From Halanaerobiales bacterium (lineage in GTDB: Bacteria; Bacillota; Halanaerobiia; Halanaerobiales; M55B127): 51,431 bases of DNA. The position numbers were made by a program, and so were the translations under genes. The notes under the pieces are model-generated. The model worked only from the letters and a program-made list of their open reading frames with translations. It was not told the origin of the DNA and did not search any database. Shown here piece by piece: positions 27,896 to 51,392 of the stretch (positions are counted from its first letter, which is position 1; each line of letters opens with the position of its first letter). The stretch is from assembly GCA_018334565.1 (NCBI GenBank), contig JAGXLU010000012.1:1-51431 (forward strand), written 5' to 3'.

Positions 27896-28948
27896 ATGAA
27901 ACCGAGTGACTATAAAGATAAAAATGAGGTTAAAACAACATATAAGATAAAAGAACTGCTTACAAAAATAGATGGCCAATATGAAGGACAGCTTTCTTTA
28001 GAACAAACCATAAGGGGTGTTAGTAGTATAGCAAATAACAGTCCAGACAGAATTACCTTTGCTGAAAATCAAAAATATATTAAAGAGGCTGAAAAGGAGG
28101 CAAAAGGAGTAGTATTAGTTGATGAAAATTGTCGGGAAAATGATATTAATAATTCGATAAAAGTTAAAAATATTAGGTTGAGTTATGCTCAAATTGCTAA
28201 GTTATTCAATCCTGTTCCTTATTATAATCCTGGAGTGGATCAGACGGCAGTACTCAAAAAAAATGTCTCTATAGCTAAAAATGTTTCTATTAACAGCGGT
28301 ACATATATAGGTGAAAACACAATAATTGAAAAAGATGTTGTGATAGCCCCTGGTGTAAAAATTGGCAGGGACGTTAGGATCGGTTCAAATACTGTAATAC
28401 ACCCTAATGTTGTGATCGAAAGGGATAGTATAATTGGTAAAGATGTAATTATCGAGGCATCTACAGTTATTGGTTCTGAGGGCTATGGATATGTTTTTTC
28501 AGAGGGCAAACATCATCATATTCCTCAACTTGGTAATGTAATTATCGAAGATGATGTAGAAATAGGGGCTGTGGTAACCATAGACCGTGCGACTCAATCC
28601 TCTACAGTTGTTAAAAAAGGGACAAAAATTGACAACCAAGTTCAAATTGGTCATAATGTACAAATAGGTTCTAACTGTCTGTTAGTTGCACATGTAGCAA
28701 TTGGTGGTAGTTCTATTTTGGGGGATAACGTCATCCTGGCAGGTCGGGTTGCAGTCTTTGACCATGTTAAAATTGGTGATAATGTTAAAGTTGGAGCCGC
28801 AAGTATTGTGACTTCCGATATCCCGGTGGATTCTTTTTATTTAGGTAACCCCGCTCAAGAAAGGATTAATGAATTAAAAGCAAGGGCACTTAAAAATAAG
28901 TTAGTTAATTACAGAAAGGAAATATTTAATTTAAAGAAAGAAAAATAA
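27896..28948 (+). CDS. lpxD: UDP-3-O-acylglucosamine N-acyltransferase
   Basis: LpxD adds the second primary acyl chain (amide at position 2) in lipid A synthesis. An N-terminal uridine-binding domain (about 1-110) is followed by a left-handed beta helix of hexapeptide repeats (for example [16 protein letters not shown]) and a helical C-terminus. The catalytic histidine motif is present in [13 protein letters not shown]. The protein has 350 residues. It sits between the Skp-like genes and lpxC. A start at ATG 27896 is supported by position only; the upstream AAATATTATGAGG is a moderate ribosome-binding site. Confidence 0.93.
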
Positions 28949-29006
28949 AAACTTAATTTTTTTTGTAGTGATTTTGATTTGCTTATTAATTAAGGGGATG
29001 AATGCT

Positions 29007-29867
29007 TTGTCCGAGCAGTTACGCGAACAGAAAACAATAAACAGAGAAGTTAATATTTGTGGAATTGGTCTTCATTGTGGACGGCCAGTTAAACTTGTTT
29101 TAAAACCTGCTCCGGCAGATTCAGGAATAGTTTTTAAGAGAACTGACCTTAAAGGGCACCCAGAAATCAAAGCTGTGGTTGATAATGTAACTTCAACAAG
29201 GAGATCCACAACTATTGGTCATAGGGATATTCCAATTAAAGTACAGACTATTGAACATTTGATGGCTGCTTTAAGGGTCTTTAATATTGATAATGTAATG
29301 ATAGAGATTGATAATGAGGAGCTGCCCGCTCTGGATGGTAGTGCCCAATTATATGGTGAACTTTTAAAAAAGGCAGGTGTAAAAGGTCAGAAGAAAACAA
29401 AAAGAATTTTTAAGATCAAGCAGAGTATTCATTTAAAAGAAAAAGATACTTATCTTGGTTTGTTTCCTTCTGATGTTTTCAAAATAAACTATCTTTTAAA
29501 GTATGACCACCCCATAATTGGAACAGAATATTTGGAATATATTTTTGATAAAGAGAGTTTTACCAAAGAAATTATGCCAGCGCGCACCTTTGGTTTTAAA
29601 AGTGAGGTTGAGAATTTAAAAAAAAGAGGTTTGGCCTTAGGGGGCAGCCTGCAAAATGCTGTTTTACTAGATAAAGATGGTGTTGTTAATGATTTAAGAT
29701 TTGATGATGAATTTGTCAGACATAAAGTTTTAGATATGGTGGGAGACTTATATTTAAATGGTCCCATTATTTGTGAAATTATAGGGATCAAAACTGGACA
29801 CCGTAATAATTATGAGCTAAACCGGCACATTCAGGCTTTAAAAATAAAAAATGGATGGGGTGAATAA
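29007..29867 (+). CDS. lpxC: UDP-3-O-acyl-N-acetylglucosamine deacetylase
   Basis: LpxC is the zinc enzyme that commits the cell to lipid A by removing the 2-acetyl group. Zinc ligands and catalytic residues are all visible: Glu83-His84 (TIEHLMAAL), His239 and Asp243 (VRHKVLDMVGD) and the general-acid His265 (TGHRNNYE). The protein has 286 residues. TTG 29007 lies 8 bases after AAGGGGA and fits the family N-terminus; ATG 28998 directly abuts that site and would be poorly placed. In the usual cluster LpxC is followed by FabZ, as here. Confidence 0.95.
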   Translation: MSEQLREQKTINREVNICGIGLHCGRPVKLVLKPAPADSGIVFKRTDLKGHPEIKAVVDNVTSTRRSTTIGHRDIPIKVQTIEHLMAALRVFNIDNVMIEIDNEELPALDGSAQLYGELLKKAGVKGQKKTKRIFKIKQSIHLKEKDTYLGLFPSDVFKINYLLKYDHPIIGTEYLEYIFDKESFTKEIMPARTFGFKSEVENLKKRGLALGGSLQNAVLLDKDGVVNDLRFDDEFVRHKVLDMVGDLYLNGPIICEIIGIKTGHRNNYELNRHIQALKIKNGWGE

Positions 29868-29868
29868 C

Positions 29869-30294
29869 TTGCATAATATTGAAGATATATTGGATGTCTT
29901 ACCACACAGATATCCTATGTTATTGGTAGATAAGGTTCTTGATTTGCAGCCGAAGGAAAAAATTATTGCAATAAAAAATGTCAGCTATAATGAAAATTAT
30001 TTTCAAGGCCATTATCCAGATAAGCCCATAATGCCCGGAGTTCTTATTATAGAGGCTCTAGCTCAAGCAGGTGGTTTTTTAATGCTTCATAGTGTTGAAC
30101 AAGAAAATGATTCTCTACCTTATTTTGCCGGTATTGATAAAGCTAAATTCAGAAAACCGGTGCAGCCGGGCGATCAGCTTAAGCTGATTTGTAATGTTAT
30201 TAATTTTAAGGGGAGAGCCACTAAGGTTCAGGCTGAGGCATTTGTTGGTGATGATTTGGTAGCAGAAGGTAGACTGCTTTTTGCAATGAAATAA
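29869..30294 (+). CDS. fabZ: 3-hydroxyacyl-ACP dehydratase
   Basis: FabZ dehydrates 3-hydroxyacyl-ACP, competing with LpxA and LpxD for the same substrate. The motifs LPHRYPMLLVDKV and GHYPDKPIMPGVLIIEALAQ are complete, with catalytic His48 and Glu62 (numbering from TTG 29869). That start lies 5 bases after GGGGTGA; GTG 29860 or ATG 29851 would extend it by 3 or 6 residues and overlap lpxC. The gene follows lpxC immediately. Its position between lpxC and an lpxA-like gene is the common arrangement. Confidence 0.94.
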   Translation: MHNIEDILDVLPHRYPMLLVDKVLDLQPKEKIIAIKNVSYNENYFQGHYPDKPIMPGVLIIEALAQAGGFLMLHSVEQENDSLPYFAGIDKAKFRKPVQPGDQLKLICNVINFKGRATKVQAEAFVGDDLVAEGRLLFAMK

Positions 30295-30316
30295 TTTTGA
30301 AAGGAGTCTTGTTATC

Positions 30317-31117
30317 TTGAACTCAAATATGAACAATAAAGTGATTAATATATCTGATAATTATAAAAATTCATATATTCACCCAAAGGCAGAGATTGGT
30401 AAAAATGTTGAAATAGGACCTTATTCAATTATTGGGCCATATGTCAAAATAGGGGATAATACTAAAATTGGAACCCATGTTACAATTACCGGGGATACTT
30501 TTTTGGGAAAAGCAAATAAAATATATCATGGTGTGTCTATTGGTTCATGTCCACAAGGGGCTAAAAAAGAAGGCCAGATATTTATCGGTGATAATAATAT
30601 ATTCAGAGAATATGTAAATATAAAAAGTGATTCAGACCGCGGCAATGCTGAGACTAAAATAGGCAACAACAATATGATTATGGCTTACTGTCACATTTCT
30701 GCAAATTGCAATATTTCCAGTGATGTTATTATGTCTAATGCTACATCTGTAGGGGAAGATGTCATAATAGAAGATCAAGCAGTGGTGGCAGGTATGACTA
30801 ATGTAAAAGAATATGTTAGAATTGGTAGAATATCTATGGTAGGGGCACATTCTAATGTGTTAAAAGATGTACCACCTTATATAATTGTGGATGGACATCC
30901 TGCTCAGGTTTCTGGCATAAATGTAATTGGCTTAAGAAGAAACAGCATAAAACCTGCAGTAAGAAGAGAAATTAAAAAGGCATACAAGATACTATATAGA
31001 TCTGATTTAAACATTGACGAAGCAATTATGGAGATGGATAATACCTTGAATGCAGATCAAAATATAGAATACTTTTTAAGATTTTTAAGAAATGTAAAAA
31101 GGGGTATTTGTCGTTAG
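30317..31117 (+). CDS. LpxA-like acyltransferase paralog lacking catalytic histidines
   Basis: The overall fold is LpxA: hexapeptide repeats from residue 20 to about 195, the VPPYIIVDGHPAQ motif, and a helical C-terminus ending RGICR, in 266 residues. The gene is where lpxA belongs, between fabZ and lpxI. The active site is altered. Aligned by coil position with E. coli LpxA, the general base His125 is Ala129, His99 is Lys103, His144 is Asp148 and His160 is Lys164; only His122 is kept (His126). Loss of His125 abolishes E. coli LpxA activity. The frame is intact, so this is probably a conserved pseudoenzyme, a partner subunit, or an acyltransferase with different chemistry. A competent LpxA is encoded at 45305. 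The start is TTG 30317 with AAAGGAG. Confidence 0.82.
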   Translation: MNSNMNNKVINISDNYKNSYIHPKAEIGKNVEIGPYSIIGPYVKIGDNTKIGTHVTITGDTFLGKANKIYHGVSIGSCPQGAKKEGQIFIGDNNIFREYVNIKSDSDRGNAETKIGNNNMIMAYCHISANCNISSDVIMSNATSVGEDVIIEDQAVVAGMTNVKEYVRIGRISMVGAHSNVLKDVPPYIIVDGHPAQVSGINVIGLRRNSIKPAVRREIKKAYKILYRSDLNIDEAIMEMDNTLNADQNIEYFLRFLRNVKRGICR

Positions 31118-31132
31118 AAAGGTGTAACTGCT

Positions 31133-31948
31133 ATGGAAAAAGTAGGACTGATAGCTGGATATGGAAAATTACCCCTACTCTGGATTAAAGAAGCCAATAA
31201 GAAAGATGTGAGGGTACACGCCTTTTTAATTAATGAAGAATACAGCGTAAATATTGCTGGTTATGCTTATACAGTAGATTATTTAAACTTAACCCAGCTG
31301 GATAGACTAATCCAGAAGATGAAAAATTATAATTTGGATAAAATAATAATGTTGGGCAAAGTGGATAAAAAGCATATTTTCAAAAAGAATAATTTTGATC
31401 AAAGATTTAATTTGTTATTTTTAAAGCTTCAAAATTTAGAAGATCATACTATATTAGGAGAAATAGTTGAGGAATTTAAGAAAGAAAACTTAGAAGTTTT
31501 AGATCAGAGGATATTTATGGATGACTTTTTAGTTGATAGCGGTCAAATTAATAATATTGAACCTGATCAACAGTTAAAAAAAGAGATGCAGTATGCTTAT
31601 CAAAAAGCAAAGAAAATTGCCAATTTAAACATTGGACAAACTATATTGACTAAAGATAAATCTGTAGTAGCTGTTGAGGCTCTGGAAGGCACGGATTTGA
31701 CCATTAAGAGAGCAGGCAGCCTGGTTAAAAAAGGCACTATTATGGCTAAAGCTAGTAAAGACAGACATGATTTCCGCTTCGATATTCCCACAATAGGTCT
31801 AGATACAATTAGAAATTTGATTTCTATAAATGCAAAAGGTCTTGTTTTGGAGAGCAAAAAAATTTTAATCATTAATCAAAGAAAAATTATTAAATTAGCT
31901 GATCGAGCTAATTTATCTATAATATCTATATCACCGGAGGAGGTTTAA
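31133..31948 (+). CDS. lpxI: UDP-2,3-diacylglucosamine pyrophosphatase LpxI
   Basis: LpxI hydrolyses UDP-2,3-diacyl-GlcN to lipid X and UMP, replacing LpxH. The N-terminal domain starts GLIAGYGKLPLLWIKEA and the C-terminal domain has the catalytic aspartate, Asp217, in RFDIPTIGLDTI (D225 of the Caulobacter enzyme, from memory). The protein has 271 residues. LpxI is the version found in alpha-Proteobacteria and diderm Firmicutes. It is followed 1 base later by lpxB, the next enzyme in the pathway. Confidence 0.93.
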   Translation: MEKVGLIAGYGKLPLLWIKEANKKDVRVHAFLINEEYSVNIAGYAYTVDYLNLTQLDRLIQKMKNYNLDKIIMLGKVDKKHIFKKNNFDQRFNLLFLKLQNLEDHTILGEIVEEFKKENLEVLDQRIFMDDFLVDSGQINNIEPDQQLKKEMQYAYQKAKKIANLNIGQTILTKDKSVVAVEALEGTDLTIKRAGSLVKKGTIMAKASKDRHDFRFDIPTIGLDTIRNLISINAKGLVLESKKILIINQRKIIKLADRANLSIISISPEEV

Positions 31949-31949
31949 A

Positions 31950-33101
31950 ATGTCTGGTAAAGTGATGGTAGTAACTGGTGAATTATCAGGTGACCAGAGG
32001 GCAGCAGAGGTTGTTGAAGAGATAAAAAGACTTAATCCCGGGGTAGAATTCTTTGGTATGGGTTCAGATAGATTGAAAGAACAATCTGTGGAAATAATCA
32101 TTGATCCGACTGAAATTAACTCTATCGGATTTTTAGAAGCAATAAAAAATTACAAAGCACATAAACATAATTATGATATTTTAAAAGATGCTGCTCAGGA
32201 AAGAAGGCCCGATGTATTTTTTTTGATTGACTTTTCTGGTTTTAATATTAAGATGGCTAAATTGGGTACAAGATTAGGCATACCCGTTGTAGATTATTTC
32301 CCTCCTTCAGCCTGGTTGTGGGGTGAATGGAGAGCAAGAAAAATGGCCAAATATGGTGCTGTAATAGCGGCGAATCTTCCCATGGAAAGAGATATATATC
32401 GAGCCAAGGGTGCTGAAACTGTTTTTGTGGGGCATCCTTTAATAGATAAAATTGATATTAATTTGGATAATATTGAACTAAATGAAATCTTTGAAATTAA
32501 AGATAAGGAGTTCCCTATTGCTTTACTGCCAGGCAGTAGAAAAGAGGAAATCGAAAAACTACTTCCCCTCATGATTGAAACAGCTCTTAAACTAAAGAAG
32601 GACAATAGCAATTATGTTTTTTTCATACCTGCAGCAAATTTAAAGTTGGCCGATTTAATTGAAGACATTTTGATCAAATATCCGATTAAGGCAAAGGTTG
32701 TAAAAGACCATACCCACCTGATTTTAAAGTTGGTTCGTTTTGCTATCGTTGCTTCTGGTACAGCAACCTTGGAAGCAATGATTTTGAATACGCCGATGGT
32801 GATTATATATAAAACCAGTAATCTAACCTATCACATTGCTAAATTATTTTATAAGAAAGATTATTTCGGCATGCCTAATATTTTATCAAACAGTGAAATA
32901 GTTCCTGAAGTAGTTCAAAATGATCTTACTGTTGATAATATTTACAAAGAAGCCCGCAATATTCTTTCCAAACCTTATCTAATGACAGATATTAAAATTA
33001 AATTGGTTTCAGCTTCTGAGAAACTGGGCAAAAAGGGTGCCATACATAAGACGGCTAAACTTGTAATGCGGGAAGGGAATATTGATGTACTTCAGAGATA
33101 A
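31950..33101 (+). CDS. lpxB: Lipid-A-disaccharide synthase
   Basis: LpxB (glycosyltransferase family 19) condenses lipid X with UDP-2,3-diacyl-GlcN to form the beta-1,6 disaccharide. Motifs are TGELSGDQRAA near the N-terminus, SIGFLEA, the PPSAWLWGEWR segment, LLPGSRKEEIEKLLP and ASGTATLEAMILNTPMVIIY. The protein has 383 residues. It follows lpxI by one base, with CCGGAGGAGG upstream of ATG 31950, and its end overlaps lptC by 17 bases. No lpxK or kdtA is in the window. Confidence 0.95.
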   Translation: MSGKVMVVTGELSGDQRAAEVVEEIKRLNPGVEFFGMGSDRLKEQSVEIIIDPTEINSIGFLEAIKNYKAHKHNYDILKDAAQERRPDVFFLIDFSGFNIKMAKLGTRLGIPVVDYFPPSAWLWGEWRARKMAKYGAVIAANLPMERDIYRAKGAETVFVGHPLIDKIDINLDNIELNEIFEIKDKEFPIALLPGSRKEEIEKLLPLMIETALKLKKDNSNYVFFIPAANLKLADLIEDILIKYPIKAKVVKDHTHLILKLVRFAIVASGTATLEAMILNTPMVIIYKTSNLTYHIAKLFYKKDYFGMPNILSNSEIVPEVVQNDLTVDNIYKEARNILSKPYLMTDIKIKLVSASEKLGKKGAIHKTAKLVMREGNIDVLQR

Positions 33102-42732: not shown

Positions 42733-42803
42733 AGGTCTTAAATTTTAATAAAGTTCTTGATGTTTTTCAAGACCTATTTGGCTGAGCTGAATAGGTCTTG
42801 TTT
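42733..42803 (+). promoter_or_regulatory. Possible attenuator before lptD
   Basis: CAAGACCTATT (42768-42778) and AATAGGTCTTG (42790-42800) form a perfect 11-bp stem with an 11-base loop, followed by TTT. An upstream AGGTCTT (42733-42739) can instead pair with AAGACCT (42769-42775). The two pairings exclude each other, as in an attenuator. The short T-run makes termination uncertain. Alternatively the 11-bp repeat is an operator. Confidence 0.42.
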
Positions 42804-42839
42804 ATGGAAAAGTGTTTGTTGTTAGGGAGGAAGGCAGCT

Positions 42840-44537
42840 ATGAGGCGATATTTATTAATCACAATATTTATAATAGTATCAATGTTTTTAGTTATTGAGC
42901 CTTTGATAGCTTTTGAACCTGTCATCAACCAAGAAATCACGGAAGATGTTTCTAACATAGAAGCTGATAATATTTATATAAATAATACAAAAAAAGAAAT
43001 AGAAGCTGTTGGTAATGTCCGGTTGACTAACCAGTCGCTAAAAATTAAGGCTGATAGGCTTGTTTTTAATTATAGGGAAAAAACAATAAATGCTTATGGT
43101 CAACCCATTTTATTTGAGTATAAAGATCGTCTTTTCAACGGAGAAAAGCTTCAGCTTAACTATAAAAAAGAAGTTGTATATTTATATAAGGCAGAAGTCA
43201 AAGTAAAAAAGTTTACATTTAGTGGCAGTGAAATAGAATATTTCCACAATGATATACCTAATTTTATCATCAAAGATGCTTACTATACAACATGTGAGAT
43301 GGAAAAACCACATTACCATTATACAGCTAAGAAGATAACATACTATCCGGATGATAGGATTGTTGGTAAAGATATTAGTTTTTGGTGGAGAGATAAAAAA
43401 ATAGTTAATTTGCCTAGTTTTATTATTAATATCACAACTGATAAAGAAGGTAAAACTGTTGTCGGCAATAACTTTCCCATACCAGAATTTGGATATAATG
43501 GAGGGGAAGGTTTTTTTATAAAAATAAATTATCCATATGAATTTAATGATAAAAACAACGGTAGACTTTATTTTTTAAAAGAAAGCATGGGTGGCTTTCA
43601 AATTAACTTAAACCATAATTATGTTATAGATATGGATAAAAAAATATTTTTATTATATAATGGAGAAAAATACATAGACAAAGAAATTTCAGAAGAGGTA
43701 AAATCATATCAATTAGGCTTTAAACACGAGGTCAATAACAACTTTAAATACAGTCTATATTTAGAAGGATATGATAAATTCAAATACGTTGATGTAGTTG
43801 AAAATGTAAGCTCGATCAATTTAGAATCTACTTATTTAAACAAAAAAATTGCTTTAAATGCAGAATCTAAATATGATCTTAATAAAAAAGAAATGATTAC
43901 GCAAAGTTATATTTTAAATCGAGAAGCTGAGAGTTCTAATTTGATAATAAAATACATAAAGGGAAATAATACTGATTATTTGCCATACGGTAAATTCAAC
44001 TATAAGCTCAATAAGGCTTTAAGTTTTGGTTTAGGCTATGGTTACATAAAAGAAAATAATTTTACTCAGCATAAGTTAGATTACATATTAAATTATAATA
44101 AGGGCATTATAATAAATCGTTCACTTGACTTTTCTTTCGATCAAAACATTAAACACATTTCATATTTGGAAGAGAAAAGTACCGCAACAAATTATCAGAG
44201 CTCTATATTTATGAATATTAATAAAACTTTTTTTGGTTTATTAAGTTTAGCTCAAAGTACCGGCTATGTTATTCAATATAATGAGGGCTATCCCCTATTT
44301 AATATTGATGAAATAAAAAAAGATAAGAAAGTAGTATCAAATACTGAATTAGATTTTTATTACCCTAAAGATAAAGAACATTGGAAATTAGCTTTGCATC
44401 TAGAATATTCTCTTTTAGAAGAGAAATTCCAGCAACGACAAGTAGTCCTTTCACATCAGTATGACTGTTATGGTTATCAAATAAATTATGATTTACATAA
44501 TAAGTCCTTAGGTTTTCAATTTAATTTTATCAATTGA
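42840..44537 (+). CDS. lptD: LPS-assembly outer-membrane protein LptD
   Basis: LptD is the barrel that inserts LPS into the outer leaflet. A signal-like helix (about 1-26) is followed by an OstA/LptA-type domain (about 38-160: IEADNIYINNTKKEIEAVGN, LKIKADRLVFNYREKTI), the conserved motif DAYYTTCEMEKPHYH, and a strand-rich barrel to residue 565 with terminal GFQFNFIN. It is shorter than E. coli LptD (about 780) and has a single cysteine in the TTC motif, so the disulfide scheme of E. coli LptD does not apply. ATG 42840 follows GGGAGG. It is separated from the lpt genes by 5 kb. No LptE is visible. Confidence 0.88.
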   Translation: MRRYLLITIFIIVSMFLVIEPLIAFEPVINQEITEDVSNIEADNIYINNTKKEIEAVGNVRLTNQSLKIKADRLVFNYREKTINAYGQPILFEYKDRLFNGEKLQLNYKKEVVYLYKAEVKVKKFTFSGSEIEYFHNDIPNFIIKDAYYTTCEMEKPHYHYTAKKITYYPDDRIVGKDISFWWRDKKIVNLPSFIINITTDKEGKTVVGNNFPIPEFGYNGGEGFFIKINYPYEFNDKNNGRLYFLKESMGGFQINLNHNYVIDMDKKIFLLYNGEKYIDKEISEEVKSYQLGFKHEVNNNFKYSLYLEGYDKFKYVDVVENVSSINLESTYLNKKIALNAESKYDLNKKEMITQSYILNREAESSNLIIKYIKGNNTDYLPYGKFNYKLNKALSFGLGYGYIKENNFTQHKLDYILNYNKGIIINRSLDFSFDQNIKHISYLEEKSTATNYQSSIFMNINKTFFGLLSLAQSTGYVIQYNEGYPLFNIDEIKKDKKVVSNTELDFYYPKDKEHWKLALHLEYSLLEEKFQQRQVVLSHQYDCYGYQINYDLHNKSLGFQFNFIN

Positions 44538-44550
44538 TGGGGGTATTTAA

Positions 44551-45207
44551 TTGAAAAAAATTCTGATATTATTGGTTTTGTTGATTCTTAGCTGCACTTT
44601 TATGGTATCAGCTAATTTTGAATTAACGGGTAAATTAAAAACAGGTAAAGATGAATATATTTCTAATGAATCAGGGTTTGAAGGTGAGCTTGTAGATTTT
44701 TATAATTACGAGGATCTCTGGTTTAAACTAAAAAATAACCTGGATTATCCAGACTATTATTATTTTAAGCTTAATTATTATCAAAAGCACTATGATCAAA
44801 AGTCGACATATGATAATCAGACGATTGATTTTAGTGGTAATTATACAAATAACTTCAGGAAAAAATACAGAAATAAATTTAAGCTGATTATTAAAGATAA
44901 AAATTATTTAAATGATCTGGATAAGTCTTATACTTCTTATTCTCTCAATTACCAATTTAGACATAAACTAAATACAATAAATCAATATATTCTTGATTTC
45001 AAGACACAACAATTTTACTATACTCTTGATGAGAATAATGATTATAAAGTTGATACATATAAAATTGACTGGCAAAGGGATATAAATAAAAATATAAGGA
45101 TTAATTTCAGTTATAAAATTAAGAAAAAAGAATATTTTTTTCAAAATTCAACAAGTGATAATAAATATGGACAGAGTTTTTCCATAGATTTTAAGTATGA
45201 TCTTTAA
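44551..45207 (+). CDS. Exported beta-rich protein downstream of lptD
   Basis: A 218-residue protein with a signal peptide (about 1-21, VSAN) and then many Tyr/Lys/Asp-rich strands such as YYYFKLNYYQKHY, YTSYSLNYQFRHKL and SFSIDFKYDL. The pattern suits a small outer-membrane barrel. A cysteine at position 15 (LILSC) is not a convincing lipobox. The start is TTG 44551, after GATGGGGG. It begins 13 bases after lptD, so the two are probably co-transcribed. A function as LptD partner is possible but unproven; no similarity to LptE was recognised. Confidence 0.68.
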   Translation: MKKILILLVLLILSCTFMVSANFELTGKLKTGKDEYISNESGFEGELVDFYNYEDLWFKLKNNLDYPDYYYFKLNYYQKHYDQKSTYDNQTIDFSGNYTNNFRKKYRNKFKLIIKDKNYLNDLDKSYTSYSLNYQFRHKLNTINQYILDFKTQQFYYTLDENNDYKVDTYKIDWQRDINKNIRINFSYKIKKKEYFFQNSTSDNKYGQSFSIDFKYDL

Positions 45208-45304
45208 AATATTTTTTAAATCATCTTTATATTGCTGTAAATTCCCTCTTTTCTTTGATAGTATATAATTCACAGTTTGATTAAAGTAATAGGAGGACAA
45301 AACT

Positions 45305-46090
45305 TTGTTAAGTAATAACAAAATTGACCATACAGCTATTATATCTGATTCAGTTAAATTGGGTAATAATGTTGAAGTAGGCCCTTATACGATTATTACA
45401 GAAGAAGTAGAGATCGGCGATAATACAAAGATTGGTGCTTATTGTCATCTTCAGGGTTGGACAAAAATTGGAGATAATAATCTGATTGATAATCATGTTA
45501 CAATAGGATTCCCGCCTCAGAATATAGGATATGATGGCAGTAGGACCTTTGTTAATATTGGTGATAATAATAAAATAAGGGAATATGCAACAATTCATCG
45601 AGGAACAACTGAAGGACGTGGAGAAACTAAGATAGGTGATAATAATACCTTTAAGTTATATTCTCATGTGGCCCATGATTGTTATTTGGGCAACAATATC
45701 ATCCTGGATAATTATGTTAATCTGGCAGGGCATGTAGTAATATATAATGATGCTTATATTGAAAGGATGGTTGGTGTTCATCAGTTTGTAAAAATAGGAA
45801 ATTTAAGTCTTATAGAGGCTCATTCTAAGTTAATAAAAGATGTTCCACCCTATATTGTAGTTAATGGTCATCCCGCCCAGGTGGCAGGAATTAATGAAGT
45901 TGGTCTAAATGATAAAAATGTAGATACTGATGTAAGAGAAGAAATAAGAAAAGCTTACAATATACTCTATGAATCGAATTTAAATATTAGCCAGGCTATT
46001 GAAAAGTTAGAAAAGGTAAGCAAAACTTATGAGCAAATAAAGAATTTCATAAATTTTCTTAAAAATTCAAATAGAGGGATCTGTAGATAA
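45305..46090 (+). CDS. lpxA: UDP-GlcNAc (or GlcNAc3N) acyltransferase LpxA, catalytically complete
   Basis: This 261-residue protein retains all five conserved LpxA histidines: His98, His121, His124 (the general base, in SHVAHDC), His143 (LAGHV) and His159 (VGVHQF). It ends with the usual helical domain and RGICR. Compared with E. coli, the substrate loop reads PQNIGYDG, so the aspartate and lysine at positions 74 and 76 are Asn73 and Gly75. It is followed 18 bases later by GnnA- and GnnB-like genes, which make UDP-GlcNAc3N; the enzyme probably acylates the 3-amino group of that sugar, as in Leptospira and Acidithiobacillus. The start is TTG 45305, with AGGAGGA upstream. Confidence 0.9.
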   Translation: MLSNNKIDHTAIISDSVKLGNNVEVGPYTIITEEVEIGDNTKIGAYCHLQGWTKIGDNNLIDNHVTIGFPPQNIGYDGSRTFVNIGDNNKIREYATIHRGTTEGRGETKIGDNNTFKLYSHVAHDCYLGNNIILDNYVNLAGHVVIYNDAYIERMVGVHQFVKIGNLSLIEAHSKLIKDVPPYIVVNGHPAQVAGINEVGLNDKNVDTDVREEIRKAYNILYESNLNISQAIEKLEKVSKTYEQIKNFINFLKNSNRGICR

Positions 46091-46108
46091 CACAGGGAGG
46101 ATAAGAAG

Positions 46109-47056
46109 ATGGACAGAGTAAAGGTTGGGGTTATTGGTGTAGGCAGTATGGGCAAAAACCATGTACGTTCATATGCTGCTTTAAAACATGTTTGTGAACT
46201 AATAGGACTCTATGATATTAATCAAAGCCGGTCTAGAAAAATGGCTAAAAGTTATGGTATTCGTTCTTTTTCTTCAACTCAGAAGATATTAAAAGAAGTA
46301 GATGCTGTAAATATAGCAACTCCTACGACAACACATTTCGATATAGCTCTTGAGGCTATTCAGGCCGGTAAACATTTATTAATTGAAAAGCCAATTACAA
46401 ATATCATAGAAGAAGCAAATCAAATTTTAAAAGAGGCTAAAAAAAAGTCATTAATAGTTCAGGTAGGTCATATAGAAAGGTTCAACCCTGCTGTTAAGGC
46501 GCTACCTGAGATGTTGAAAGAAGAAAAGATTATAGCAATAGACATCCAAAGAATGGGCCCTTATGATCCCCGAATCGATGATACAGATGTAATTCAGGAT
46601 CTTATGATTCATGATATTGATGTAGTAAGTTCTCTGATACAAGGAGATATAGCTCAGATGAATGCCCTGGCAAGAAAGGTAACTTCGAAAAAACATATGG
46701 ACTTTGCTGTCGCTAATTATCGCACAGAAGATGATATAATTGTTACTCTTACTGCCAGTCGCTCTACAAATAAAAAGGTTCGTAAGATGTCAATTACTAC
46801 TGAAAAATCTTTTATTGAGCTTGATTACATTGGAAGGAAAATAACAAGAACCAGAAGGGGTAATGGCAACTCTAATAAAAACAAACAAAGGGAATATGAA
46901 GAATCTTATGAAAACGAAGAAGAACCTTTAAAAATGCAGTTGATTGATTTTGTCAATAGTATACAAAACGGGACAAAGCCTCTGATTACTGGGTATGATG
47001 GACTTGAAGCTTTAAAACTAACCAAGTTAATCCAAGATAAAGTCTATATAGATTAA
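46109..47056 (+). CDS. gnnA: GnnA-like UDP-GlcNAc 3-dehydrogenase (Gfo/Idh/MocA family)
   Basis: A 315-residue NAD(P)-dependent dehydrogenase. The Rossmann loop GVGSMG is at residues 10-15, the family EKP motif at 93-95 and the catalytic-region motif GHIERFNPAV near 120-129. GnnA oxidises UDP-GlcNAc at C3 so that GnnB can aminate it. The family is broad (WbpB and others act on UDP-GlcNAcA), so the name rests on the neighbours: LpxA before and an aminotransferase 19 bases after. GGGAGGA lies before ATG 46109. Confidence 0.8.
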   Translation: MDRVKVGVIGVGSMGKNHVRSYAALKHVCELIGLYDINQSRSRKMAKSYGIRSFSSTQKILKEVDAVNIATPTTTHFDIALEAIQAGKHLLIEKPITNIIEEANQILKEAKKKSLIVQVGHIERFNPAVKALPEMLKEEKIIAIDIQRMGPYDPRIDDTDVIQDLMIHDIDVVSSLIQGDIAQMNALARKVTSKKHMDFAVANYRTEDDIIVTLTASRSTNKKVRKMSITTEKSFIELDYIGRKITRTRRGNGNSNKNKQREYEESYENEEEPLKMQLIDFVNSIQNGTKPLITGYDGLEALKLTKLIQDKVYID

Positions 47057-47075
47057 AAATTGAGGGGAGTTTAAA

Positions 47076-48161
47076 ATGATACCAATAGCCAATCCAATTA
47101 TCGAAGAAGAAGAAAAAAGTTTAGTTAATGAAGTAATGGACAGTGGAATGCTAGTTATGGGAAAATATGTGAAAAAGTTCGAGGAGAAATTTACGAAATA
47201 CTCAGAAACTGATTTTGGTATAGCAACTTCCAGTGGAACCACAGCTTTAGATGTTGCTCTTAAATCTTTAAACATTGAAGAAAATGATAAAATTATAACA
47301 ACTCCTTTTACTTTCATTGCTAGCAGTAATTCTATTCTATACTCAAAAGCGGACCCTATATTTGCTGATGTTAGAGAAGATAGTTTTAATATAGACCCAG
47401 ATTCAATAAGAAGATTGTTAAAGGAATATCCAGACACCAAGGCTCTCTTAATTGTACACCTTTTTGGGCAACCCTGTGATATGGATGAGATTATAAAAAT
47501 AGTGAATCAACATAATTTATTATTGATTGAAGATAGTGCTCAGGCCCATGGTGCAACCTATAATAATCAGAAAGTAGGTTCTTTTGGTGATGTTTCAGCT
47601 TTTAGTTTTTACCCCACAAAGAATATGACAACTGGTGAAGGTGGTATGGTCTTAACAGATCAAAAGGAGATTATGGAAAAAGCAAGATTATTAATAAATC
47701 ACGGTTCTGCACAGAAGTATCATCATGATATTTTAGGATATAATTACAGGATGACCAATATCGCTGCTGCTATTGGGTTGGTTCAGTTTAAAAAATTAGA
47801 TGAGTATAATAAAATCAGAAAGGAAAATGCCCGAAAATTAACTCAAGGATTAGTTGATCTAAATTGGCTTGAAACACCAGCCGTATTGGAAAACAGGGAA
47901 CATGTTTTTCATCAATATACAATAAAAACAGATTATAGAGATGAACTTTTACAGTACTTAACAGAAAAGGGTATAGGTTATGGAATACATTATCCCTTGC
48001 CAACATATGAACAAAATTTATATCAAAAATTAGGATACAAAGATATTACTTGTCCGGTAACTGAAAGAATTTGCGATCAAGTTGTTTCATTACCAGTACA
48101 TCCTGCCCTTTCTGAAAAAGATTTAAATTATATTATTGATAAATTAAGAAAGTTTAGATAA
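47076..48161 (+). CDS. gnnB: GnnB-like PLP aminotransferase (DegT/DnrJ/EryC1 family)
   Basis: A 361-residue sugar aminotransferase. The PLP-binding lysine is Lys182 in SFYPTKNMTTGEGG; IEDSAQAHGA holds the Asp that contacts PLP, and the family opening is IPIANPIIEEEE. GnnB transfers an amino group from glutamate to the 3-keto sugar made by GnnA, giving UDP-GlcNAc3N. With LpxA two genes upstream, this completes a three-gene cassette for the lipid A diamino sugar. An alternative is a WbpE-type enzyme for a surface polysaccharide, which I consider less likely given lpxA. GAGGGGA precedes ATG 47076. Confidence 0.8.
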   Translation: MIPIANPIIEEEEKSLVNEVMDSGMLVMGKYVKKFEEKFTKYSETDFGIATSSGTTALDVALKSLNIEENDKIITTPFTFIASSNSILYSKADPIFADVREDSFNIDPDSIRRLLKEYPDTKALLIVHLFGQPCDMDEIIKIVNQHNLLLIEDSAQAHGATYNNQKVGSFGDVSAFSFYPTKNMTTGEGGMVLTDQKEIMEKARLLINHGSAQKYHHDILGYNYRMTNIAAAIGLVQFKKLDEYNKIRKENARKLTQGLVDLNWLETPAVLENREHVFHQYTIKTDYRDELLQYLTEKGIGYGIHYPLPTYEQNLYQKLGYKDITCPVTERICDQVVSLPVHPALSEKDLNYIIDKLRKFR

Positions 48162-49655: not shown

Positions 49656-51392
49656 ATGGATTATAAGCAGAGATATAAAAAGTGGTTAAAAGATGATTAT
49701 TTTGATGATGAAATAAAAGCTGAATTAGAAAAAATACAAGATAACGAAAAAGCAATTGAGGATCGTTTTTATAAAGACTTAGAGTTTGGTACCGGCGGTA
49801 TGAGGAGTAAAACCGGGGCTGGCACCAATAGGATTAACAAATATACAATTAGGAGGGCTACTCAGGGTTTTGCTAATTATATTATTAATTACTATGAAGA
49901 TGAAGGTAAGAATTCCGGGGTTGTGATAGCTTATGATCCACGTCATAAATCTTCAGAATTTGCCTTAGAAGCGGCCCGCGTTCTGACTGCCAATAATATT
50001 AAGACTTATCTCTTTGATTCCCTACGTCCTACTCCGGAACTTTCTTTTGCAGTTAGAAAATTAGAAGCTTGTGGTGGTATTGTTATAACAGCCAGTCATA
50101 ATCCGCCTGAGTACAATGGTTATAAAGTGTATGGTCCAGATGGATGTCAGGTTGTACCTAATCTAGCGAGAAAAATAATAGCAGAAATAAATGAAATAAA
50201 TAATTTTTCAATGGTAAAAGTAATAAACAAAGAAGCAGCTCAAAAACAAGGATTATTAAAATATATTGGTGAGGATATTGACAGTAGTTATATTAAAAAA
50301 ATGGTTGATGTGATTCCCCACACAGAGCTATCTAAGAAAAAGGGTGGGGATCTCAATATAATCTATACTCCTCTACATGGCAGTGCTTATAAATTGACAG
50401 AAAGGCTGTTAAAAAATCTGGGTTTTGTTAATCTAACAATTGTGGAAAAACAGGCTGTTTTTGATCCGGACTTTTCAACAGTTGAAAGTCCAAACCCAGA
50501 AGAATATTCTGCTTTTGAAATGGCTTTGGAATTGGCGGATGAGCAAGATGCAGATTTGATTATGGGAACTGATCCTGATGGCGACCGAATGGGGGCCATA
50601 ACCAAAGATGCAGGTGATCATTATATAGCTCTCAATGGTAATCAACTTGGTATATTAATGTCAGATTTTTTATTAAATAATACAGAAGTTCCTAAAAATG
50701 GTGTTATAATTAAATCTATTGTTTCTACTGAATTAATTAAAAAAATAGCAGCTGAACATAATGTCGAAGTTATTGATGTTTTAACTGGTTTTAAATATAT
50801 AGGTGAATTGATAACAGAGTTTGCAGAAAAAGGAAACAAGAACTTTATTTTAGGATTTGAAGAAAGCTATGGATATTTAATAGGAGAATATGCCAGAGAT
50901 AAAGATGCGATAGTTGCATGTGGTTTAACGGCTCTAATAGCCCTTCATTATAAAAGAAAGGGTAAAACCCTTTATCAGAGATTACAGGAGATATATGATG
51001 AATATGGATACTATGAAGAGGCATTAGTGTCAATAAGAAGAGGAGGAAAGGAAGGTCAAGATAAGATAAATGGAACTCTAAAAAAATTAAGAGAGGAAGG
51101 TGTTGAAGAGATAGCCAATCAGGAGGTTATCTTATGGAAAGATTATCAAAAAAGAAAAGTATATAATTTAAAAGATAGTTCAGAAAGTGAAATTAATTTA
51201 TCAGAATCAAATGTATTGCAGTATATATTAGAAGATGAAAGTTTAATTACAGTTCGACCTTCTGGAACAGAGCCTAAGTTAAAAGTATATTTCGCAGTCA
51301 ATGATAGGACTGAAAAATCTGCTGAAAATAAATTAGAAAAGATTAAAGATATGTTTTCTAAAAGAGTTGAAAAAATAATTGAGAGTATCTAA
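49656..51392 (+). CDS. pgcA: Alpha-phosphoglucomutase (PgcA-like)
   Basis: This alpha-D-phosphohexomutase interconverts glucose-1-phosphate and glucose-6-phosphate. The phosphoserine loop TASHNP has Ser147; Asp306, Asp308 and Asp310 (TDPDGDRMG) bind Mg2+; GFEESYGY is the sugar-binding loop and RPSGTEPK the phosphate-binding loop. Its 578 residues match B. subtilis PgcA (about 580) and not the shorter GlmM or ManB types. It would feed UDP-glucose and surface-polymer synthesis. ATG 49656 is 11 bases after AGAGGTG, a rather long spacing. It is preceded by a long gap and is probably transcribed alone or with the gene that begins after the window edge. Confidence 0.93.
   Translation: MDYKQRYKKWLKDDYFDDEIKAELEKIQDNEKAIEDRFYKDLEFGTGGMRSKTGAGTNRINKYTIRRATQGFANYIINYYEDEGKNSGVVIAYDPRHKSSEFALEAARVLTANNIKTYLFDSLRPTPELSFAVRKLEACGGIVITASHNPPEYNGYKVYGPDGCQVVPNLARKIIAEINEINNFSMVKVINKEAAQKQGLLKYIGEDIDSSYIKKMVDVIPHTELSKKKGGDLNIIYTPLHGSAYKLTERLLKNLGFVNLTIVEKQAVFDPDFSTVESPNPEEYSAFEMALELADEQDADLIMGTDPDGDRMGAITKDAGDHYIALNGNQLGILMSDFLLNNTEVPKNGVIIKSIVSTELIKKIAAEHNVEVIDVLTGFKYIGELITEFAEKGNKNFILGFEESYGYLIGEYARDKDAIVACGLTALIALHYKRKGKTLYQRLQEIYDEYGYYEEALVSIRRGGKEGQDKINGTLKKLREEGVEEIANQEVILWKDYQKRKVYNLKDSSESEINLSESNVLQYILEDESLITVRPSGTEPKLKVYFAVNDRTEKSAENKLEKIKDMFSKRVEKIIESI

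Follow-up and report, generated by a model that had tools for sequence, protein, structure and literature searches.

Complementary half-site losses in two LpxA paralogues of a Halanaerobiales bacterium, and a predicted route to an all-amide lipid A precursor

Why would a bacterium with a canonical lpx cluster keep a second LpxA, encoded directly upstream of two putative amino-sugar enzymes? The question is raised by a stretch of 51,431 nucleotides from a Halanaerobiales bacterium (hereafter, the window), which forms contig C67 in a draft genome of 2.16 Mb (G000, 97% complete) from the order that includes Halothermothrix and Halanaerobium. The first step of lipid A synthesis is performed by LpxA, a drug target regarded as a single-gene homotrimer; to our knowledge, every LpxA studied so far is homotrimeric. 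Three forward-strand open reading frames at 45305-48161 encode a second LpxA (LpxA2), a GnnA-like dehydrogenase and a GnnB-like aminotransferase, the cassette that a first-pass annotation of this DNA had reported, and the canonical cluster holds another copy, LpxA1 (30317-31117, forward strand). The best explanation, which we consider fairly probable from the sequences compared, is that GnnA and GnnB make the 3-amino derivative of UDP-N-acetylglucosamine (UDP-GlcNAc3N, from UDP-GlcNAc), that a hetero-oligomer of LpxA1 and LpxA2 N-acylates it, and that a disaccharide with four amide-linked chains results. The more specific proposal that LpxA has split into complementary paralogues forming an obligate heterotrimer with one UDP-GlcNAc3N site, and that the window's genus makes a disaccharide free of 3-deoxy-D-manno-octulosonic acid (Kdo) and formed without LpxK, leans slightly towards the probable.

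The LpxA2 gene (45305-46090, forward strand; 261 amino acids), identified by reading frame, families and alignment, begins with TTG, and an AGGAGG ribosome-binding site (45291-45296, forward strand) ends eight bases before this start. The protein exceeds both NCBIfam LpxA equivalog cut-offs, TIGR01852 and NF003657 (308 versus 226 bits and 293 versus 231 bits), and displays beta-helix repeats with the C-terminal domain PF13720. Histidines occur at all of the Escherichia coli positions 99, 122, 125, 144 and 160, together with Q161, so the claim of catalytic completeness holds; the catalytic residue is His124 in its own numbering (codon 45674-45676, forward strand, by alignment). In the substrate loop (45518-45529, forward strand, by alignment), QNIG is present where E. 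coli has Q73-D74-L75-K76. The loss of D74 and K76 corresponds to Asn73 and Gly75 in LpxA2, two substitutions noted earlier that are real, and both positions are changed in all LpxA2 copies. The UDP pocket was checked at M118, M170, N198 and R204, where LpxA2 has K, L, N and D, N198 alone being retained; the half-site changes are M118K, I152Y, M170L and R204D. Among 15 LpxA2 copies, a set that leaves aside the one of genome G007 and includes that of G030, whose partner lpxA1 was not found in its 76% complete assembly, M170 is gone from all, and M118 and R204 are each gone from all but one. Every other active LpxA checked retains M118, M170 and R204, except for Leu118 in two. Because the UDP-binding half of its site is lost, LpxA2 probably cannot work alone, which modifies its earlier designation as the N-acylating enzyme. 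The copies form a single clade in the LpxA tree (support 99), which makes LpxA2 an ancient paralogue within the order that was lost from several lineages or transferred between them.

LpxA1 also exceeds its NCBIfam LpxA cut-off (260 versus 231 bits), and at the position of the catalytic His125 it has alanine (Ala129, codon 30701-30703, forward strand, by alignment). His125, His144, His160 and Gln161 are lost from LpxA1 throughout the window's genus (five of five genomes) and in all six genomes of family f5 with a readable copy, the LpxA1 set being 11 copies from families f1 and f5. Elsewhere in the class, His125 is kept by the canonical LpxA of every genome. A dead LpxA1 is absent from genomes without LpxA2, the sole exception being G004 (62% complete), and every LpxA2 genome with both loci assembled also carries lpxA1. 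Open frame and cluster position are maintained in the 11 genomes. The ratio of nonsynonymous to synonymous substitution rates (dN/dS) is 0.069 (G000/G003) and 0.023 (G001/G002) for LpxA1 versus 0.140 and 0.045 for LpxB, in a comparison that leaves out the G001/G002 LpxD pair as a wrong match. On these grounds, LpxA1 is CATALYTICALLY dead but under selection, and not a decaying gene, since its dN/dS is low (0.02-0.07). By the residues it retains, LpxA2 is the sole LpxA with a catalytic base where LpxA1 is dead, and the part of the earlier designation that named it as the catalyst stands to this extent. Two unusual copies were observed. In G008 (L099, 9418-11334), the LpxA1 frame extends to 638 amino acids, with long lysine- and serine-rich extensions surrounding the LpxA core. 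In G041 (C18, L050, 1054-1848), a genome without GnnA, a second LpxA carries G143E, H160Y and Q161E and keeps H125, its B side having partly decayed independently.

What each paralogue has lost can be read against the geometry of the site. The substrate of LpxA lies between two monomers, monomer A forming the pocket for UDP and monomer B the one for GlcNAc and catalysis (PMC7072397); a second source likewise places the site between adjacent subunits (PMC6408518). The published monomer A and B lists (PMC7072397), with H122 and H160 added, served as half-sites, and retention was scored at sites invariant among 37 intact LpxA of the class. Part of the loss pattern was known to the analyst before the lists were read, the lists themselves having been fixed by others. 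Retention in LpxA1 (11 copies) is 84% at A sites, 11% at B sites and 62% elsewhere, versus 22%, 76% and 65% for LpxA2 (15 copies), in which D74 and K76, both in the sugar loop, are the only universal B-side losses. Permutation of the site labels gives p of about 1e-5. Regional relaxation was ruled out as the cause by the interleaving of A and B sites along LpxA1, where M118 is kept and H125 lost, and H160-F162 are lost and M170 kept. Both halves are retained by the single LpxA of E. coli, Leptospira, Campylobacter jejuni and family f10. That LpxA1 is simply being replaced by LpxA2 and is heading for loss would be in keeping with its missing catalytic residues and with the long branches of the f5 copies; it is nevertheless very improbable, given a dN/dS as low as that of LpxB or LptB, the frames open in 11 genomes, and a UDP half-site kept well above the background of other sites. 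It is also unlikely, although to a lesser degree, that LpxA2 acts on UDP-GlcNAc3N as a self-sufficient homotrimer with a remodelled nucleotide pocket while LpxA1 serves as a regulatory pseudoenzyme, for example a sensor of UDP-sugar or acyl-acyl carrier protein. LpxA2 does keep His122, His125, His160 and Gln161, pseudoenzymes frequently turn into regulators, and the exceptional LpxA2 of G007, which retains M118, M170, N198 and R204, shows that a protein of this type can hold both halves. The losses of M118, M170 and R204 across the 15 other copies point the other way, and a regulator leaves unexplained why LpxA1 has retained exactly the half that LpxA2 lost. The use of G007 as a clean control, possessing LpxA2 without LpxA1, was withdrawn, as lpxI is also not found there and the lpx cluster is possibly missing from the assembly.

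Which sugar the pair of LpxA proteins would receive depends on the identity of the other two enzymes. The second protein of the cassette (46109-47056, forward strand; 315 amino acids) is a Gfo/Idh/MocA dehydrogenase with an EKP motif, assigned as a GnnA-like UDP-GlcNAc 3-dehydrogenase by reading frame, families, PDB scores and tree. Its top family is NCBIfam UDP-GlcNAcDh_Arch (NF040723), at 259 bits, the cut-off of 450 not being reached. The third (47076-48161, forward strand; 361 amino acids) is a DegT aminotransferase in which the lysine motif YPTKNMTTGEGG for pyridoxal phosphate is present, assigned as a GnnB-like pyridoxal phosphate-dependent 3-aminotransferase by reading frame, families and tree. 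In the PDB, GnnA matches 7bvj best (155 bits), with 71 bits for the next entry and 47 for 3q2k. We take 7bvj to be the GnnA of Acidithiobacillus ferrooxidans and 3q2k/3q2i to be WlbA, the PDB listing giving only 'oxidoreductase' or 'dehydrogenase'. As an internal control, the Wbp-type dehydrogenase of G007 scores 274 bits to WlbA and 46 to 7bvj, and the aminotransferase of the same Wbp cluster scores 309 bits to WbpE versus 173 for the window GnnB. In the trees, GnnA is split from WlbA/WbpB with support of 100, and GnnB stands apart from WbpE (clade support 100). A WbpB/WbpE uronic-acid pathway was rejected by the PDB scores, the G007 control and the trees; the grouping that the first-pass annotation had named as fatal to its own reading was sought and not found. 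The cluster in G007 (C1, L106, 10994-15988) is a true WbpB/WbpE-type cluster in a genome that also carries the GnnA-GnnB cassette.

The prediction that GnnA-GnnB constitutes a UDP-GlcNAc3N pathway is supported by these comparisons. The kinship implied by the annotation is another matter: outside the class, the two enzymes are closest to proteins of Bacillus, Paenibacillus and archaea, and they do not group with the lipid A-linked GnnA and GnnB of other phyla. In the Bacillus and archaeal modules, a hexapeptide acetyltransferase gene of 192-194 amino acids lies between gnnA and gnnB; this gene is absent from the window cassette, where LpxA2 sits upstream instead. We infer that the class acquired the Bacillota/archaeal module and that LpxA2 replaced its acetyltransferase.

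The association between the sugar loop and GnnA was counted across the class (59 genomes). GnnA is accompanied by an active LpxA lacking K76 in 20 genomes and occurs with K76 only in 3; K76 is lost without GnnA in 1, and 31 genomes show neither feature (Fisher p = 7e-11, with no correction for kinship). At least two lineages, the LpxA2 clade and family f10, changed the loop separately. Elsewhere, the K76 position is G in Leptospira and S in C. jejuni, and Helicobacter pylori retains K. The altered sugar-facing loop of LpxA2 fits a changed sugar at C3. One f10 genome, G043 (94% complete), has neither LpxA nor GnnA, the other five having both, and loss of lipopolysaccharide is possible there. 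The arrangement LpxA2-GnnA-GnnB is not due to chance, because it recurs in families f1, f3, f4, f5 and f7 of the order in the same order or most of it, usually with an LptD-like gene on one side and a phosphoglucomutase-like gene on the other. The three genes follow one another at intervals of 18 and 19 bases and therefore probably form a single transcript, and all three are under strong purifying selection. These observations bear on the possibility that GnnA and GnnB supply a surface polysaccharide of the UDP-GlcNAc3NAc type, LpxA2 being a mere neighbour that uses ordinary UDP-GlcNAc. Such a role would suit the nearest relatives, which belong to a module of monoderm Bacillota and archaea, and the position of GnnA-GnnB away from lpx genes in G020 and G026. 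We judge it improbable, however, since LpxA2 directly adjoins GnnA in five families with no acetyltransferase or glycosyltransferase beside the cassette, the loops of LpxA2 and of the f10 LpxA changed in step with GnnA, and GnnA homologues of other phyla adjoin lpxI or lpxB.

Several observations weigh against an LpxA1/LpxA2 hetero-oligomer acting on UDP-GlcNAc3N. The assignment of residues to subunits relies mainly on one open paper (PMC7072397), and the side chain of Q161 is grouped with R204 in the other (PMC6408518). The genomes compared share ancestry and hence are not independent. Families f3 and f7 combine an LpxA2 whose UDP half is gone with a still intact LpxA1. Three genomes (G013, G020, G026) possess GnnA-GnnB with only a QDLK LpxA, and in G024 (L044, 7696-9651) LpxA2 and GnnB lie next to each other without GnnA, for which the rest of the genome offers no strong candidate either. 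Loss of K76 was rejected as a universal signature of UDP-GlcNAc3N-type LpxA because Nitrospirota with GnnA-GnnB-LpxB clusters retain QDLK; the loop change by itself is no reliable signature. Finally, the AlphaFold monomer models are too poor for use, with a mean predicted local distance difference test score of 71 for LpxA1 and 79 for LpxA2, and the LpxA1 model reaches a template modelling score of only 0.36 against LpxA folds.

With these points considered, the proposed hetero-oligomeric route, whose substrate, oligomer and final lipid are deduced from the observed gene order, residue losses, selection, phylogeny and gene absences, would proceed as follows. GnnA would oxidise the 3-OH of UDP-GlcNAc and GnnB would transaminate the product to UDP-GlcNAc3N, whose 3-amino group would then be N-acylated by the hetero-oligomeric LpxA. 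From LpxA1 would come the pocket for UDP together with the acyl-side methionines (M118, M170, N198, R204); the catalytic histidines and the pocket for GlcNAc3N would come from LpxA2. A trimer mixing the two would have a single active site, at the LpxA1-to-LpxA2 interface. LpxC, LpxD, LpxI and LpxB would follow, leading to a disaccharide with four amide-linked primary chains. Families f3 and f7 may represent an intermediate stage able to make ester and amide forms, the situation inferred for Capnocytophaga canimorsus, and in f1 and f5 the catalysis of LpxA1 would have been lost after the UDP half of LpxA2. For Halanaerobium sp. MA284_MarDTE_T2 (L117), which carries the cassette and an intact LpxA1, the model predicts a mixed or hybrid backbone, and for f5, as for the window's genus, chains that are all amide-linked.

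In the window's genus, the detectable pathway would end before LpxK, Kdo transfer and secondary acylation. LpxK, WaaA, LpxL/M and KdsA were not detected in five of five genomes of this genus (g1, G000-G004), and heptosyltransferases were also not found in four of the five; the former are present in most of the order, in one cluster in nearly all other genomes. Because completeness is 97, 93, 80, 79 and 62%, absence by chance is unlikely. As LpxA1 is catalytically dead and LpxA2 the sole catalytic LpxA, all-amide primary chains are the natural prediction, and this part of the four-amide lipid A proposed earlier survives; a complete lipid A is not expected, because LpxK, WaaA, LpxL/M and KdsA are undetected. 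The predicted product is probably a Kdo-free tetra-acyl disaccharide 1-phosphate carrying four amides, unless the pathway is finished by enzymes yet to be recognised. Family f5 possesses LpxK and WaaA, so that the proposed split of LpxA is independent of this truncation. In genus g13 (G019, G022, G031), LpxK, WaaA, LpxL/M and KdsA are likewise undetected, the one exception being a divergent WaaA-like gene of G022. The gene content suggests a Kdo-free outer-membrane glycolipid in g1 and g13.

Several known systems offer comparisons. The LpxA of Leptospira interrogans is specific for UDP-GlcNAc3N, and its lipid A is built on 2,3-diamino-2,3-dideoxyglucose (GlcN3N) with four amide-linked chains. 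This enzyme (3HSQ, whose PDB title names sugar selectivity) shares with LpxA2 the change of K76 to Gly, but keeps D74 and the UDP half-site (M118, M170, N198, R204) that the window LpxA2 lacks. The same reactions are expected for GnnA and GnnB as in A. ferrooxidans, 7BVJ (probably its GnnA) being the best PDB match, whereas the window enzymes lie in another branch of both trees, among Bacillota and archaea. The nearest relatives, from the archaeal and Bacillus UDP-GlcNAc3NAc module, differ in the acetyltransferase gene, whose place LpxA2 is proposed above to have taken. Dead paralogues that are obligatory partners of active ones occur in prozyme-type hetero-oligomers, e.g., trypanosome deoxyhypusine synthase. 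LpxA1 would resemble these as a dead paralogue kept as partner; the open literature searched contains no relevant report of an inactive or heterotrimeric LpxA. Capnocytophaga canimorsus carries lpxA, lpxA', gnnA and gnnB and makes a hybrid GlcN3N'-GlcN (GlcN, glucosamine) backbone (PMC3342949). The window's genome likewise combines gnnA and gnnB with a pair of lpxA genes, and families f3 and f7, in which LpxA2 accompanies an intact LpxA1, resemble this system; the comparison covers genes and backbone, and in the window's genus and f5 one LpxA is without the catalytic half and the other without the UDP half. In Verrucomicrobia genomes (L236, L237) where GnnA lies by lpxI and lpxB, a QDLK copy is accompanied by a second LpxA without K76 (S or A), both half-sites being largely retained; this may be another two-LpxA hybrid system. 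A natural split of the LpxA active site, if true, would show an essential symmetric enzyme turning into an obligate heteromer, with the intermediate stages surviving in the sister families f3 and f7. Within the literature searched, the proposal would also be the first to predict diamino lipid A for a Firmicute, and the window's genus may maintain an outer membrane with a truncated, Kdo-free lipid A.

The remaining features of the window all lie on the forward strand. The canonical cluster lpxD-lpxC-fabZ-lpxA1-lpxI-lpxB spans 27896-33101, followed by lpt genes, and includes LpxD (27896-28948; the downstream step of N-acylation at C2), the deacetylase LpxC (28968-29867) and FabZ (29851-30294). 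LpxA1, with its UDP half-site kept, is the proposed partner of LpxA2 from this cluster. LpxI (31133-31948) reaches 103 bits with NCBIfam UDPdiagluDHLpxI, below the cut-off of 400, and is assigned with its conserved position; the disaccharide synthase LpxB (31950-33101) is the last Raetz-pathway enzyme detected in the window's genus. Upstream of the cassette are the syntenic LptD-like protein (42798-44537; Pfam LptD_N) and, between it and LpxA2, a syntenic small protein with a signal-like N-terminus and no family match (44551-45207). The conserved downstream neighbour is the phosphoglucomutase-like gene (49656-51392), its family assigned by sequence reading. In G013 (C13, L103, 8307-10397), GnnA-GnnB is located within a lipopolysaccharide core gene cluster, with no second LpxA.

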